Shown piece by piece: positions 6,087-10,659 of a stretch of 64,000 bases of DNA. The notes under the pieces were generated by a model. The model saw only the letters and a program-made list of their open reading frames with translations. It made no database searches and was not told the origin of the DNA. Source of the stretch: Mesotoga infera (GTDB lineage: Bacteria > Thermotogota > Thermotogae > Petrotogales > Kosmotogaceae); NCBI RefSeq assembly GCF_900157305.1, contig NZ_LS974202.1:2790001-2854000 (forward strand), written 5' to 3'. Numbering within the stretch: position 1 is the stretch's first letter; every line of letters starts with the position of its first letter. A program made the position numbers and the translations under genes.

Positions 6087-6306
6087 GCAAACCTCCATAG
6101 AGCTTTTATCAAAATACTTATTGTGATTTTAGCATCCTGTCATAAAAATACCCGGCCGAGAGAAAAGAGACTTCTATGATCTCGCTATCCTCCGAGATAG
6201 TACCTTAATTTACCAAGTTGTCATAATCATTCAAATATCGGGTAACTGTGGGAGGTTATCTTTCAGTTGGATCGACCCTGAATTTGCCCAATTTTCAATT
6301 ATTAGG

Positions 6307-6355
6307 TTGCTCAAATGGGGTTTTATTTTTAATATAAAATGTGAATTATTTCACA
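6307..6355 (+). promoter_or_regulatory. Promoter and Rex/CRP-like operator of the sulfur operon
   Basis: TTGCTC (6307-6312), a 17-bp spacer and TAATAT (6330-6335) form a sigma-70-type promoter. Directly downstream, 6340-6355 is a perfect inverted repeat TGTGAA-TTAT-TTCACA, placed on the expected start site. It fits the general Rex consensus TTGTGAA-N4-TTCACAA at 16 of 18 positions and also matches the CRP half sites TGTGA-N6-TCACA. Its location at +1 suggests a repressor site. The rest of 6087-6374 shows no gene or clear structure. Confidence 0.6.
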
Positions 6356-6374
6356 CCAAACTGGAGGTATGAAT

Positions 6375-6614
6375 ATGGCGAAGTATGATGTAACAAAATC
6401 AATCGATGTAAGAGGAGAAGTCTGTCCCGTGCCGGATGTCGAAACGAAAAGGGCACTCAAGAAGATGAAAGCCGGAGAGATTCTCGAAGTGTGGATCGAT
6501 TACGCGATGTCGAAAGAGAGAATACCCGAAGCCGTTAAGAATCTCGGTCATGAGGTTCTCGAAATCGAGGAAACAGGCACCAGCGAGTGGAAGATCTATA
6601 TAAAAGTCAAGTGA
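6375..6614 (+). CDS. tusA: TusA-family sulfur carrier protein
   Basis: A 79-residue TusA/SirA-like protein that carries sulfur as a persulfide on the Cys of the CPVPD motif (Cys17), part of DVRGEVCPVPD. The fold's second half with RIPEAVKNLGHEV and a C-terminal basic strand is intact. ATG at 6375 is preferred over 6369 because GGAGG lies seven bases before it. It is the first gene of the sulfur operon and stands before a YeeE-type transporter, the arrangement expected of a partner accepting sulfur from that transporter. It closely resembles the C-terminal domain of the regulator at 8701. Confidence 0.93.
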   Translation: MAKYDVTKSIDVRGEVCPVPDVETKRALKKMKAGEILEVWIDYAMSKERIPEAVKNLGHEVLEIEETGTSEWKIYIKVK

Positions 6615-6627
6615 TAGGCAGGAGTGA

Positions 6628-7623
6628 ATGACTATGGCCTGGACTGGTCTCTTAATAGGGGTAATATTCGGTATCATTCTTCAAAGGGGAAGAGTATGTT
6701 TTAATTCGGCTTTCAGAGATATTTTGCTGTTCAAAGACAACTACCTGTGGAAACTAGGATTTCTCGCGGTAGGACTTCAGGCTATAACGGTTTTGTTCGT
6801 CGCCCAGATGGGTTGGATAAGAATAGCTCCCCCGACTCTGAACTTTTTCAGTAATATAGTGGGTGCTTACATTTTCGGTCTTGGAATGGTTCTGGCTGGC
6901 GGATGCGCATCCGGGGTCACGTACAGGGCCGGAGAGGGAATGACGACCGCGATGTTCGGAGCCGTTTTCTATGGTCTTGGAGCACTAGCAATGAGGAGCG
7001 GCATTTTCTCCGGCATAAGGACATGGGCAGCCGGTTTCAACATTACTGTTGCCGGAAACTCACCGGTATACTTCGATAAAGTCGGTCCTACTCTGGCGAC
7101 TATATTCAACATCAATCCCTGGATACCTGCGGTTATAGTTGCAGCTTTGTTGCTCTGGTACACTCTTGGTACGAAGACCACAGATAGACCGACGAAGTTC
7201 AACTGGAAAGTAGCCGCTATAGCACTCGCTATACTTTCGCCTATCGCGTGGATAACGAGCGTAGCGGCCGGAAGAAACTACGGTTTAGGGATAACTGGCG
7301 GTTGGATATCGATCTTCGATACCTTCATATCAAACCAGCCTCTGAGATGGGATGGATACGAAATAATAGGCATAATACTTGGTGCATTGATCGCATCTCT
7401 TCTGGCCAAAGAGTTCAAGCTGAGAATGCCGAAGAACCCAAAGACGTATCTTCAGGTCATGGTTGGGGGTATAATGATGGGGGCCGGTGCAAATTTGGCT
7501 GGTGGTTGTAACATCGGGCACTTCCTGACGGGGCTCCCGACACTTGCGATCTCATCCATAGTTGCCAGTATCTTTTTGATTCTCGGTAACTGGACGATGG
7601 CGTACATACTGTACAGAAAGTGA
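6628..7623 (+). CDS. YeeE/YedE (TsuA-like) sulfur or thiosulfate transporter
   Basis: A 331-residue polytopic membrane protein of the YeeE/YedE family. Characterised members (TsuA) bring thiosulfate into the cell by relaying it between buried cysteines. Three conserved Cys motifs are visible: GRVCFNS (Cys24), GGCASG (Cys93) and GGCNIGH (Cys294), the latter two matching the internal repeat of the family. Start is ATG 6628, although ATG 6634 has better spacing from GGAG at 6621. It sits 13 bp after tusA, which supports joint uptake and relay. Whether the substrate is thiosulfate or another sulfur species is inferred. Confidence 0.88.
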   Translation: MTMAWTGLLIGVIFGIILQRGRVCFNSAFRDILLFKDNYLWKLGFLAVGLQAITVLFVAQMGWIRIAPPTLNFFSNIVGAYIFGLGMVLAGGCASGVTYRAGEGMTTAMFGAVFYGLGALAMRSGIFSGIRTWAAGFNITVAGNSPVYFDKVGPTLATIFNINPWIPAVIVAALLLWYTLGTKTTDRPTKFNWKVAAIALAILSPIAWITSVAAGRNYGLGITGGWISIFDTFISNQPLRWDGYEIIGIILGALIASLLAKEFKLRMPKNPKTYLQVMVGGIMMGAGANLAGGCNIGHFLTGLPTLAISSIVASIFLILGNWTMAYILYRK

Positions 7624-7633
7624 GGCAGAAGTC

Positions 7634-7990
7634 TTGAAAATAACAATACAGACACTAGTTCCTCCGTACACTTACGAAGATCTGGATACGGCAATCAAAC
7701 TAGCTGAAGCGGCCCTTAACAGGGGCCATGATGTTACCATATTTCTGTTCGCCGATTCGATTCTCTCGACAAACAGTTTTGTGAAACCGATCAGGGTAGA
7801 TAGAAACATTCCGGAGAAACTGAAGTCCCTGATAGCCGAAAAAGGTTTGAAGGTAGAGATCTGTGGAATCTGTATGGACTACAGAGGAGTTACCAAGGAC
7901 ATGATAATTCCCGGCTCCAACCCCAGTGGACTGCCTGAGCTTGCGACCCTTATTTACAGCAGCGACAGGTTCGTGAACCTGATGGCTTGA
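7634..7990 (+). CDS. DsrE-like sulfur relay protein
   Basis: A 118-residue DsrE/DsrF-like fold protein. Family members (DsrE, TusD) accept persulfide sulfur on a conserved Cys. Here the candidate is in CGICMDYRG (Cys77/Cys80), in the position of the active Cys of DsrE. The rest shows the alternating beta/alpha pattern with an early VTIFLFADS strand. The start is TTG at 7634, only ten bases after the transporter stop. With the next two genes it forms a DsrEFH-like trio. Confidence 0.85.
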   Translation: MKITIQTLVPPYTYEDLDTAIKLAEAALNRGHDVTIFLFADSILSTNSFVKPIRVDRNIPEKLKSLIAEKGLKVEICGICMDYRGVTKDMIIPGSNPSGLPELATLIYSSDRFVNLMA

Positions 7991-8000
7991 GGTGATGGTG

Positions 8001-8354
8001 ATGAAAAAGATACTATTCGTTGTTTATCAGGCGCCGGGCGGCTCTATATGGGTAAACGAGGCCTTCAGGACCGCGTTCGGGATGTACGGAGAAGATATCG
8101 AACCTTCGGTGCTTCTGGTGGAAGAGGCAACAGTCGCCCTATCGAAGAAAGCTCAGCCGGAATGTCTCGGTCTGCTTCCGATATCGATCTGCTTCAGATT
8201 TATCAAGAGGTACGAGACCGAGGTTTACGCTATCAAAGAACACGTGGAAAAGTTCAAGATAAAGGAAACTGAAGAGAGTTTCAACGTTAGGCTCATCGAT
8301 GAGAAAGAGCTCGGCGATTTTCTCCACAGCTTTGATAACGTAATTTTCATGTGA
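8001..8354 (+). CDS. DsrF/TusC-like sulfur relay subunit
   Basis: A 117-residue protein with the DsrE/F fold, corresponding by order and shape to DsrF/TusC, a non-catalytic or auxiliary subunit of the hexameric relay complex. ATG at 8001 is chosen because GAGGTG lies six bases upstream, and the in-frame GTG/ATG codons at 7992-7998 fall inside that site. Two Cys are present (near residues 50 and 58), one in a LPISICF segment, but no DsrE-type active Cys context is evident. It overlaps neither neighbour and is tightly spaced in the operon. Confidence 0.8.
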   Translation: MKKILFVVYQAPGGSIWVNEAFRTAFGMYGEDIEPSVLLVEEATVALSKKAQPECLGLLPISICFRFIKRYETEVYAIKEHVEKFKIKETEESFNVRLIDEKELGDFLHSFDNVIFM

Positions 8355-8364
8355 GGTGTTTGGT

Positions 8365-8628
8365 ATGGCCCTTATTGTAATAAAATACGGCAAGCAGAAC
8401 GTTGCTGAGAGCTTGAAGTTTATGGCCACAAGGAAGGGTGACAGTGTTGTCCTTGTTCAGGACGGAATCTTCTGGGCTCTGGATGAGCTAAATACCGAGG
8501 CCGAGGTTTTTGCGATTATCGACGATGTGAAGGCCAGAGGTTACAGCGCCGATGATTTGACCGTTCCCTCGATCACCTACGATGAATTTGTAGAGATAAT
8601 CGAAAAATCTGAAAAAACTATCGGTTAA
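8365..8628 (+). CDS. DsrH/TusB-like sulfur relay subunit
   Basis: An 87-residue small protein with the DsrH/TusB profile: a VLVQDGIFWAL strand-turn, an acidic helix and a final ITYDEFVEIIE helix. In TusBCD/DsrEFH this subunit completes the complex. The usual conserved Cys of DsrH is not seen, as the sequence contains no Cys. GAGGTG at 8352-8357 places the start at ATG 8365. Third member of the DsrEFH-like trio. The lack of Cys implies a structural role. Confidence 0.8.
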   Translation: MALIVIKYGKQNVAESLKFMATRKGDSVVLVQDGIFWALDELNTEAEVFAIIDDVKARGYSADDLTVPSITYDEFVEIIEKSEKTIG

Positions 8629-8700
8629 TTGATGGTTTTGAAACCCGAGAGATGCTCTTCATAGAAGGGCACCTTTTATTGAAAGGGATAGTGGATTTCC

Positions 8701-9273
8701 ATGGCAAACCTAAAATTACCTGACCTGTTCAAAGTCTTCGCCAATCAAACAAGGATAGAAATCGCGACTCTGATAGTCGATAATTGTATGACAGCCTCGG
8801 AGATATCTGAAAGACTTCAGATGGATCTTTCCACAATCTACAGACATCTTCAACACATGAAAAAACGAGGAATATTGAACTCGAAGTTCTCTAAAGGAGT
8901 CGAGAGATTCGATTTCAGTTCTCCTAGAATATACAGATTGTTTGAAGAAGCGGTATCCTTCATCAGCGAAACTAAGGAATACAGGTTCCTGGACTGTTCA
9001 AAAGGTATTTGCCATCATTATCTTGGAGAAATGGGTGTCGATGTTAAACCCGATCTTCTACTAGATATGCGCGGTGAGTCCTGCCCGGTTCCGGATATGC
9101 AAACGAAAGTGACTCTCTCCGAGATGGAAGAGGGAAAGGTTCTATTGGTCATAGTGGATTACCCACTTTCCGGCGAGAGGATTCCCGTATCCGTTCAAAG
9201 GGAAGGGCACGAGTTTCTCAAGAAAATCATCGATGATAATGGCGACATTAAGATCTATATAAGGAGGAAATGA
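8701..9273 (+). CDS. Winged-helix (ArsR-like) regulator fused to a TusA domain
   Basis: A 190-residue two-domain protein. Residues about 5-80 form an ArsR-type winged helix-turn-helix (recognition helix around STIYRHLQHMKK). A linker contains Cys99 and Cys104 followed by two His. Residues about 118-190 are a complete TusA domain with the persulfide Cys128 in GESCPVPD, close in sequence to the stand-alone TusA at 6375. The inference is a transcription factor that reads the sulfur-loading state of its own carrier domain and controls the surrounding operon. It has a 72-bp gap upstream, no clear promoter of its own, and is followed immediately by the flavoprotein gene. Confidence 0.88.
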   Translation: MANLKLPDLFKVFANQTRIEIATLIVDNCMTASEISERLQMDLSTIYRHLQHMKKRGILNSKFSKGVERFDFSSPRIYRLFEEAVSFISETKEYRFLDCSKGICHHYLGEMGVDVKPDLLLDMRGESCPVPDMQTKVTLSEMEEGKVLLVIVDYPLSGERIPVSVQREGHEFLKKIIDDNGDIKIYIRRK

Positions 9274-9274
9274 G

Positions 9275-10636
9275 ATGTACGATGCTATCGTTATAGGGGG
9301 AGGCCCTGGAGGATACGTCTGTGCTATAAGGCTTTCTCAGCTTGGAAGGAAAGTGGCTCTTGTGGAGAAGGAATATCTGGGGGGCACCTGCACAAACTGG
9401 GGTTGCATACCGACAAAGGCTATGCTGACCTCGGCCCATCTGTTTTCCGAGATAAAGGATAAATCGAAGAGACTGGGCATCGATGTCTCGGATCTCAACT
9501 ATCGACTCGATGGAATCATGTCACACATGAACAGGACTGTGACCACTTCACGCAAAGGAATCGAGCTACTGCTGAAGAAAAACGGTGTCGATTTCTTCAA
9601 AGATAAAGCCTTAGTAAAAGACCCCCACAGTGTACTCCTTGAAAAGGACAACTCCTTGTTGGAGACAAAGAACATAGTCCTTGCCAACGGATCAGAACCG
9701 TCAATGTTCCATCCATTCAGCAATGTCGAAGGGATATGGACGAGCAACGATGTGTTCAAGCTGAATGAGATGCCTTCGAGTCTTGCCATAGTGGGCGGCG
9801 GAGTCATCGGAGTTGAGTTCGCAACTTTCTTCAGCACCTTCGGAGTCAAAACGACCGTCATCGAGTTGGCCGAGCATATTCTGCCCTATGAAGATACAGA
9901 TGTGGCGGAGGAGATAAAGAAGGCCCTGAAGAAAAAAGCTGTTACCGTTCTCGAGAAGACAAAGGTCGTATCAGTCGAGAAGCTCGATAAGGGTTATCTT
10001 CTCAATACGGCGGGTGAGGAGGAAACTACGATCGAGGCTGAAAAGCTTCTGGTAGCGGTAGGCAGAAGAGCAGTTCTCTCCGATGACATAAAGAATTTGG
10101 GCGTGGAAATTGGAAGGGGTGTCGTAACGGACGGACATATGAGGACTAGCGTACCAGACGTTTACGCGATCGGTGATATCAGGGCCGGTATTATGCTTGC
10201 GCACGTCGCCAGCTACGAAGGGATAGTGGCGGCACACAACATAGCGGGTGAGGATCTGGAGATGGATTATTCAGCAGTCCCCTCGATAATTTTTTCAAGT
10301 CCAGAGGTTGCTTCTACGGGTTTGAGAGAAAGCGACCTCAAAGGCAGGTCCGATGTTGTTGTCTCCAGATTCCCCCTGAGTGCCAACGGACGGGCACGGA
10401 CTATACTAGAGAGTTCTGGCTTTGCCAAAATACTGGCCGAACACGAAACCGGGAAGGTTCTGGGTATGAGTATAGTCTCTCCCTCGGCTACCGATTTGAT
10501 AATGGAGGCCGTGATCGCCGTGAAGAACGGATTGACCGTAGAGCAACTGGAGAATTCGATCCATCCTCACCCAACTTTGTCGGAAACTGTTCTGGGTGCA
10601 CTTGAAGGAGTAGAGGGCAAGAGCATTCATATATAA
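9275..10636 (+). CDS. Dihydrolipoamide dehydrogenase-like flavoprotein
   Basis: A 453-residue class I pyridine nucleotide-disulfide oxidoreductase of normal length. The FAD Rossmann motif GGGPGG is at residues 8-13, the redox-active pair Cys39/Cys44 in GGTCTNWGCIP, the NAD-binding GGGVIG near 170, and the C-terminal HPHPTLSE with the base His. It is translationally close to the regulator gene (AGGAGG overlapping its stop, ATG at 9275). No lipoyl carrier or 2-oxoacid dehydrogenase gene is nearby, so in this operon it may reduce a persulfide or disulfide carrier with NAD(P)H. Classical lipoamide dehydrogenase remains possible. Confidence 0.88.
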   Translation: MYDAIVIGGGPGGYVCAIRLSQLGRKVALVEKEYLGGTCTNWGCIPTKAMLTSAHLFSEIKDKSKRLGIDVSDLNYRLDGIMSHMNRTVTTSRKGIELLLKKNGVDFFKDKALVKDPHSVLLEKDNSLLETKNIVLANGSEPSMFHPFSNVEGIWTSNDVFKLNEMPSSLAIVGGGVIGVEFATFFSTFGVKTTVIELAEHILPYEDTDVAEEIKKALKKKAVTVLEKTKVVSVEKLDKGYLLNTAGEEETTIEAEKLLVAVGRRAVLSDDIKNLGVEIGRGVVTDGHMRTSVPDVYAIGDIRAGIMLAHVASYEGIVAAHNIAGEDLEMDYSAVPSIIFSSPEVASTGLRESDLKGRSDVVVSRFPLSANGRARTILESSGFAKILAEHETGKVLGMSIVSPSATDLIMEAVIAVKNGLTVEQLENSIHPHPTLSETVLGALEGVEGKSIHI

Positions 10637-10659
10637 AGAGGCCGCAAGGCCTCTTTTTT
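10637..10659 (+). terminator. Intrinsic terminator of the sulfur operon
   Basis: GAGGCC-GCAA-GGCCTC (10638-10653) with a run of six T immediately after the stem, starting directly behind the flavoprotein stop codon. It ends the plus-strand operon that begins near 6340. The opposite gene ends within it, so it also separates convergent transcription. Confidence 0.9.

Follow-up and report, generated by a model that had tools for sequence, protein, structure and literature searches.

The tusA-tsuA-dsrEFH cluster

The window analyzed here, a stretch of 64,000 nucleotides from the Mesotoga infera genome (2.97 Mb, single contig), harbors a cluster with the gene order tusA, tsuA, dsrE, dsrF, dsrH, fusion gene, and lpd (Table 1). 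The sixth gene was confirmed to encode an ArsR-type winged helix joined to a complete TusA domain.

Table 1. Features of the tusA-tsuA-dsrEFH cluster in the window.
Feature	Position	Strand	Remarks
Motif A, candidate operator	6209..6226	+	TTTACCAAGTTGTCATAA; upstream of predicted -35 of tusA
Candidate sigma-70-type operon promoter	6307..6335	+	TTGCTC-N17-TAATAT, weak consensus match
Rex-like box	6338..6355	+	AATGTGAATTATTTCACA; between predicted -10 and ribosome site of tusA operon
Free TusA (TM0983/1JDQ-like, YeeD-type)	6369..6614	+	
TsuA (YeeE) thiosulfate transporter	6628..7623	+	NF052577, 541.7 bits (cut-off 400)
DsrE/TusD-like sulfurtransferase subunit	7634..7990	+	
DsrF/TusC-like subunit	7992..8354	+	Top match TIGR03010, below its curated cut-off
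DsrH/TusB-like subunit	8356..8628	+	
Terminator-like hairpin, dsrH/fusion gap	8653..8671	+	z -1.3
ArsR-type winged-helix and TusA fusion, putative regulator	8701..9273	+	190 aa, intact ORF; winged helix-turn-helix residues ~3-92, linker ~93-112, TusA 113-190 with Cys128 in CPVP
Dihydrolipoyl-dehydrogenase-like flavoprotein (lpd)	9275..10636	+	Last gene of the cluster; TIGR01350, 537.5 bits (cut-off 408.8)
Terminator-like site at end of lpd	10635-10656		

In essentially all genomes with contig context, the fusion gene adjoins tusA-tsuA-dsrEFH or its lpd, in one of three placements (genus names given to relative genomes are our inferred assignments): downstream of and co-directional with the cluster (Mesotoga, Thermotoga, Pseudothermotoga), close to the 3' end of the cluster on the other strand (Marinitoga, Thermosipho, Fervidobacterium), or as the first gene (genomes G087 and G088). 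In genome G045, fusion-lpd and tusA lie on different contigs. GC-rich hairpins were found at the site equivalent to the dsrH/fusion gap of the window in other Mesotoga, Thermotoga, and Pseudothermotoga, with z values of -2.4 to -3.9 in four relatives and of -1.1 in one that is cut short. The hairpin at 8653-8671 may lower read-through and hold regulator levels under those of the structural genes.

Several clusters differ in gene content. A gene for a GcvH-like lipoyl carrier lies between dsrH and lpd in fusion-less or divergent clusters (L063:8948-9289, L057:2963-3286, and L059:7866-8198), and a second such gene adjoins the fusion gene in Thermosipho G079. These carriers are reminiscent of the lipoate-binding proteins involved in sulfur oxidation. 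In the window genome, a single GcvH-like gene is present, away from the cluster (2083182). Furthermore, Mesotoga G027 has an in-frame join (L061:6758-7111) that leads from the first part of yeeE directly into the fusion's linker and TusA half, leaving out dsrEFH and the winged helix; this is either a real deletion or an assembly fault. In Marinitoga G038 (L035:10183-10617), tusA is apparently joined to dsrE with loss of yeeE, while the fusion gene and motif A are kept.

Domain architecture and cysteine conservation

The original prediction had read the protein as an ArsR-like winged helix and a full TusA domain with an intact persulfide-type cysteine; both domains and the cysteine (Cys128 in CPVP) were confirmed. 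Using curated Pfam gathering cut-offs, HTH_20 was matched at residues 14-60 (E 2.8e-8; 34.1 bits, cut-off 27), HTH_5/arsR at residues 16-61 (E 5.2e-7; 29.9 bits, cut-off 22), and TusA (PF01206) at residues 121-189 (3e-17; 62.7 bits, cut-off 28.6). Both folds were also recovered via superposition of an AF2 model (27 homologues in the input, pLDDT 87.9, pTM 0.78), in which residues 3-92 superposed on CzrA (Z 13.3, rmsd 1.7 over 89 residues) and residues 113-190 on YeeD from the YeeE-YeeD complex (8J4C; Z 14.5, rmsd 1.0, 38% identity). Foldseek likewise ranked YeeD structures first, closely followed by HlyU, an ArsR protein. However, the protein stays below the curated cut-offs for ArsR/SmtB metalloregulators (NF033788; 38.1 bits versus 55) and TsuB/YeeD (NF041048; 18.2 bits versus 147.5, which the free TusA of the operon also fails with 41.8 bits), and far below that for BigR (NF040642; 13.6 bits versus 155). 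Assignment as a defence-system protein was rejected, as the defence models match only the generic HTH.

Across 34 aligned fusion orthologues, Cys128, Pro129, Pro131, Asp153, Ser157, Glu159, and Arg160 are invariant; the Cys128-Pro-x-Pro motif is kept throughout, while the rest of the TusA half drifts. Cys128 is the sole invariant cysteine of the family (34/34), and no second conserved cysteine position was found in the alignment. The Cys99-x4-Cys104-His-His motif, to which the original prediction had drawn attention, is indeed present in the linker of the window protein, which also carries Cys29, but it does not extend to the family: the cysteine pair, found in Mesotoga, is absent from Thermotoga and Pseudothermotoga and replaced by a shifted pair (99/106) in Marinitoga and most Thermosipho fusions, and the His-His is lost even inside Mesotoga. 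As a general sensor, the linker motif therefore fails. It should be noted that Cys29 of the winged helix and linker cysteines (98-107) mostly alternate between clades, so that almost all fusions have either of them besides Cys128; the exceptions are two sequences with both and one Fervidobacterium-type sequence (L043) with neither.

Distribution and origin of the fusion

Of the 103 Thermotogota genomes, about 37 contain the fusion, covering most families (35 of the main type and the two divergent ones of G087 and G088). With 34 aligned orthologues in which Cys128 is invariant, it is no local accident. In a contig scan of 84,980 species, full-length fusions among the best 80 matches read came solely from Thermotogota, every other match read being a single TusA domain. 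Likewise, the samples taken from Spirochaetota, Chloroflexota, Synergistota, Promethearchaeota, Coprothermobacterota, and Actinomycetota contained no full-length fusion, nor did the plasmids and viral contigs searched. Since thresholds in these searches were strict (two of them ran without a positive control) and the whole genomes sampled did not include Bacillota or Proteobacteria, divergent fusions outside Thermotogota may have been missed. The architecture had been put forward as one not known from a described regulator, and in agreement with this, no report of an ArsR-TusA fusion was found in the open-access literature.

The fused TusA domain was originally thought to closely resemble the free TusA of the same operon. 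The resemblance is moderate, at 49% identity over 72 aa; in the tree, however, the 31 main-type fusion TusA domains form one clade (97/89) that is separate from all free TusAs and evolves faster than these. With only 73 columns, the deep forks of this tree are weak. The divergent fusions of G087 and G088 branch elsewhere, but one clade with the main type was not rejected (p-AU 0.13); they possibly represent a second fusion event. Both were found in Thermotogaceae MAGs as the first gene of a tusA-tsuA-dsrEFH-type operon (L056:998-1486 and L057:5587-6111). As a separate observation, Promethearchaeota MAGs encode many stand-alone TusAs (many loci within L105-L142) with a DYPLSAERIP signature and a CPYPD motif, which are close to the Thermotogota/Synergistota type and suggest lateral transfer.

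A candidate operator and a Rex-like box upstream of tusA

When the regions upstream of 29 tusA genes were subjected to Gibbs sampling, two motifs emerged that scored about 20-21 bits compared to about 10.8 bits in shuffled sets, the former values being inflated by the relatedness of the input sequences. One of them, of the form TTGTGA/TTGAGA-N6-TCACAA, is conserved over Thermotogota, including operons without the fusion. Because of this, and because it is of the same type as ATTTGAGAAATTTATCACAAAA, the operator bound by Rex in T. maritima (PMC8836258), the motif at 6338-6355 was assigned to Rex, which suggests NADH control of thiosulfate import. Nevertheless, Rex alone would not predict induction by thiosulfate, since NADH releases Rex from DNA (PMC8836258) and thiosulfate reduction consumes NADH.

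The other motif, motif A (TTTACCAAATtGTAA), has as its family consensus an imperfect inverted repeat, TTAC-N6-GTAA. In a leave-one-clade-out scan, 27 of the 29 tusA promoters from genomes with a main-type fusion (including G027, whose fusion is truncated) contained motif A at p<=0.025. The tusA promoter of G045 passed as well, and in this genome motif A precedes both of the separated promoters, that of tusA and that of fusion-lpd. In contrast, motif A was unconvincing in all 7 operons without the fusion, the best match (p 0.037, L059) overlapping a Rex-like box. Furthermore, 30 of 32 strong matches in 616 kb preceded either tusA or the fusion gene (after correction of mis-set tusA starts in L035, L040, and L154), and in whole-genome scans the motif occurred almost nowhere outside the cluster. 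The correspondence has exceptions, as motif A is not clearly present in G101, which has the fusion, and is weak in G052, and few independent losses lie behind the co-occurrence. Taken together, motif A is a candidate operator of the fusion protein. The regions 6300-6375 and 8629-8700, initially proposed as binding regions, hold the Rex-like box and the terminator-like hairpin instead, making 6209-6226 the better candidate. Motif A was not found before the opposite-strand fusion genes with their own promoter (Marinitoga, Thermosipho, Fervidobacterium); autoregulation by the fusion is therefore not general.

Outside Mesotoga, motif A usually lies 0-15 bp upstream of the best predicted -35, and its distance to the Rex box further downstream is mostly 57-68 bp (94-113 bp in two Marinitoga), compared to about 80 bp upstream of the -35 and 129-138 bp from the Rex box in Mesotoga. 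As a rule, ArsR proteins are repressors; the position of motif A upstream of the predicted -35, however, suggests activation, and the fusion probably acts as an activator. This sign depends on predicted promoter positions, the promoter calls being weak consensus matches, and the larger distance in Mesotoga speaks against it.

Thiosulfate as the likely signal

Thiosulfate is an electron sink for Thermotogota. Judging by gene order, we take the thiosulfate-induced cluster of T. maritima to be that of G090, which contains a fusion orthologue at 990.8-991.3 kb of its contig. The yeeE gene of T. maritima, located in a cluster with dsrE/tusA homologues, was reported to be up 42.6-fold one hour after addition of thiosulfate and to rise only slightly with S0 (PMC9431562). 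Moreover, StYeeD from Spirochaeta thermophila reacts with thiosulfate through Cys17, its single conserved cysteine, and its binding to YeeE, which requires E15, V16, C17, D42, Y43, E48, and R49, is weakened by thiosulfate (PMC11073785).

The fusions keep the equivalents C128 (34/34), D153 (34/34), Y154 (33/34), E159 (34/34), and R160 (34/34), i.e., besides the cysteine 4 of the 6 YeeE-binding residues; the equivalent of E15, E126, is E or Q, and V16 is not conserved. The divergent fusions of G087 and G088 keep the set as well. By a simple hypergeometric count, the overlap between YeeE-binding residues and the most conserved fusion positions has p=0.002-0.006. The retention of C, D, Y, E, and R supports the TusA half as a YeeD-like sensor domain, although sulfur chemistry alone could explain it, since these residues surround the active cysteine. 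The original prediction of a direct sulfur-status sensor is partly supported: the fusion is conserved, tied to the cluster, invariant at Cys128, and accompanied by motif A, as would fit a regulator built on a carrier of its own pathway. With respect to the signal, the prediction is better narrowed to thiosulfate or sulfane sulfur arriving via TsuA, in view of YeeD/TsuB being the nearest relatives of the domain and of the yeeE response of T. maritima.

Proposed mechanism and alternative readings

That the regulator sits on the sulfur carrier of its own pathway is well supported by the genomic comparisons. We further consider it moderately probable that the fusion is a one-component, thiosulfate- or sulfane-sulfur-responsive regulator of tusA-tsuA-dsrEFH-(lpd) that works through motif A, Cys128, and activation. 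This reading builds on the architecture, its conservation and linkage, the invariant Cys128, and the co-occurrence of the operator candidate with the fusion. The winged helix, probably dimeric, would bind motif A upstream of the -35 of the tusA promoter, with the YeeD-type TusA domain as the putative sensor. Thiosulfate entering via TsuA would lead to modification of Cys128, either by direct attack of the cysteine on thiosulfate, as in YeeD, or with sulfur from the relay of free TusA and DsrEFH; the literature contributes the induction of yeeE in T. maritima and the cysteine chemistry of YeeD to this part. Modified Cys128 would then alter DNA binding and increase transcription, most likely by activation, and Rex, acting from a second site that lies between the -10 and the start codon, would make it responsive to NADH as well. 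Inferred from these data are the binding of motif A, the loading of Cys128 as signal, and the sign of activation, as would be any docking on YeeE. As the regulator carries a copy of the importer's carrier partner, the cell probably controls the cluster by sulfur chemistry on the switch, which would let a single promoter integrate the supply of sulfur (via Cys128) with the redox state (via the Rex box).

A docking on the transporter could itself be the signal. In this possible but not favored reading, the TusA half would bind the cytoplasmic face of TsuA/YeeE and hold the factor at the membrane as long as no thiosulfate flows, until modification of Cys128 by thiosulfate causes its release and action on motif A, similar to MalT-MalK or Mlc-PtsG. 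The equivalents of the YeeE-binding residues (C, D, Y, E, and R in 33-34 of 34 fusions, E or Q at position 126, and kept likewise in G087 and G088) and the weakening of YeeD-YeeE binding by thiosulfate (PMC11073785) would fit such a docking, but the lack of a conserved V16 and the fact that Marinitoga G038 keeps the fusion after the seeming loss of yeeE by the tusA-dsrE deletion argue against it, and the residues encircling the active cysteine may be retained for their chemistry. Docking is compatible with the favored mechanism and differs from it in that the signal would lie in how the transporter is occupied and where the factor is located, and not in an altered affinity for DNA. More tentatively still, the fusions may represent phylum-wide one-component thiosulfate sensors in which the YeeD-type cysteine docks on TsuA and reports thiosulfate, with release leading to activation at motif A. 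Less likely is that motif A is the site of another regulator and that the targets of the fusion lie elsewhere; motif A is indeed lacking before some fusion genes that have a promoter of their own, and further small ArsR proteins are encoded near the Marinitoga cluster, but the genes for the latter do not accompany the cluster consistently, and the near confinement of motif A to the cluster genome-wide, its co-occurrence with the fusion, and its presence before both separated promoters in G045 speak against this.

The sensor could also reside in the other half of the protein, as a dithiol in the ArsR domain or linker (as in SqrR, BigR, and SoxR), to which the TusA half merely delivers sulfur. 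Cys29, Cys99, and Cys104 in the window protein and a further cysteine at 29 or within 98-107 in almost every fusion would allow for this; given that no second cysteine position is conserved family-wide, that Thermotoga and Pseudothermotoga lack the linker pair and the L043 fusion lacks Cys29 as well as any linker cysteine, and that the BigR model score is far under its cut-off, we regard it as quite improbable. Even more doubtful is a TusA domain that handles sulfur as a trigger enzyme or aids dimerisation without signalling. TusA proteins are enzymes or carriers, the operon already has a free TusA, and the fused domain evolves faster, yet strict retention of both Cys-Pro-x-Pro and the D/E/R face throughout the 34 proteins is not what one would expect of a pure scaffold.

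Comparison with known systems

Regulators responding to sulfane sulfur are known, and the route by which sulfur reaches them is open; whether TusA loads SoxR/sHdrR is one such question (PMC11582611). Here, carrier and regulator form one chain, and the transfer question therefore becomes directly testable with one cysteine, one operator, and one importer. A strong response of the cluster to thiosulfate has already been established for T. maritima, which has an orthologue of the fusion.

The closest relatives of the sensor half, YeeD/TsuB of Spirochaeta thermophila and E. coli, share with the fusion the fold, the single active cysteine in CPxP, the DYPLSxER surface, and the tsuA neighbourhood; the fusion adds an ArsR winged helix, and its operon already contains a separate free TusA. 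With respect to the DNA-binding half, the ArsR-type sulfane-sulfur repressors SoxR/sHdrR (Hyphomicrobium), SqrR, and BigR have the ArsR fold, sulfur-responsive logic, and linkage to genes for YeeE/SoxT-type import and TusA in common with the fusion (PMC11582611). However, these proteins sense by two cysteines in the ArsR domain and repress, whereas the only invariant cysteine of the fusion lies in the appended TusA domain and the position of motif A suggests activation. MalT-MalK and Mlc-PtsG, regulators sequestered by transporters until substrate flows, are parallels for the docking reading only, and the putative docking element of the fusion differs in being a sulfur-carrier domain with a reactive cysteine. 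Finally, the YeeE-YeeD single chains of Corynebacterium also join a TusA-type domain to a partner of its pathway (PMC11073785), which is the transporter in that case and a DNA-binding domain in the Thermotogota fusion.
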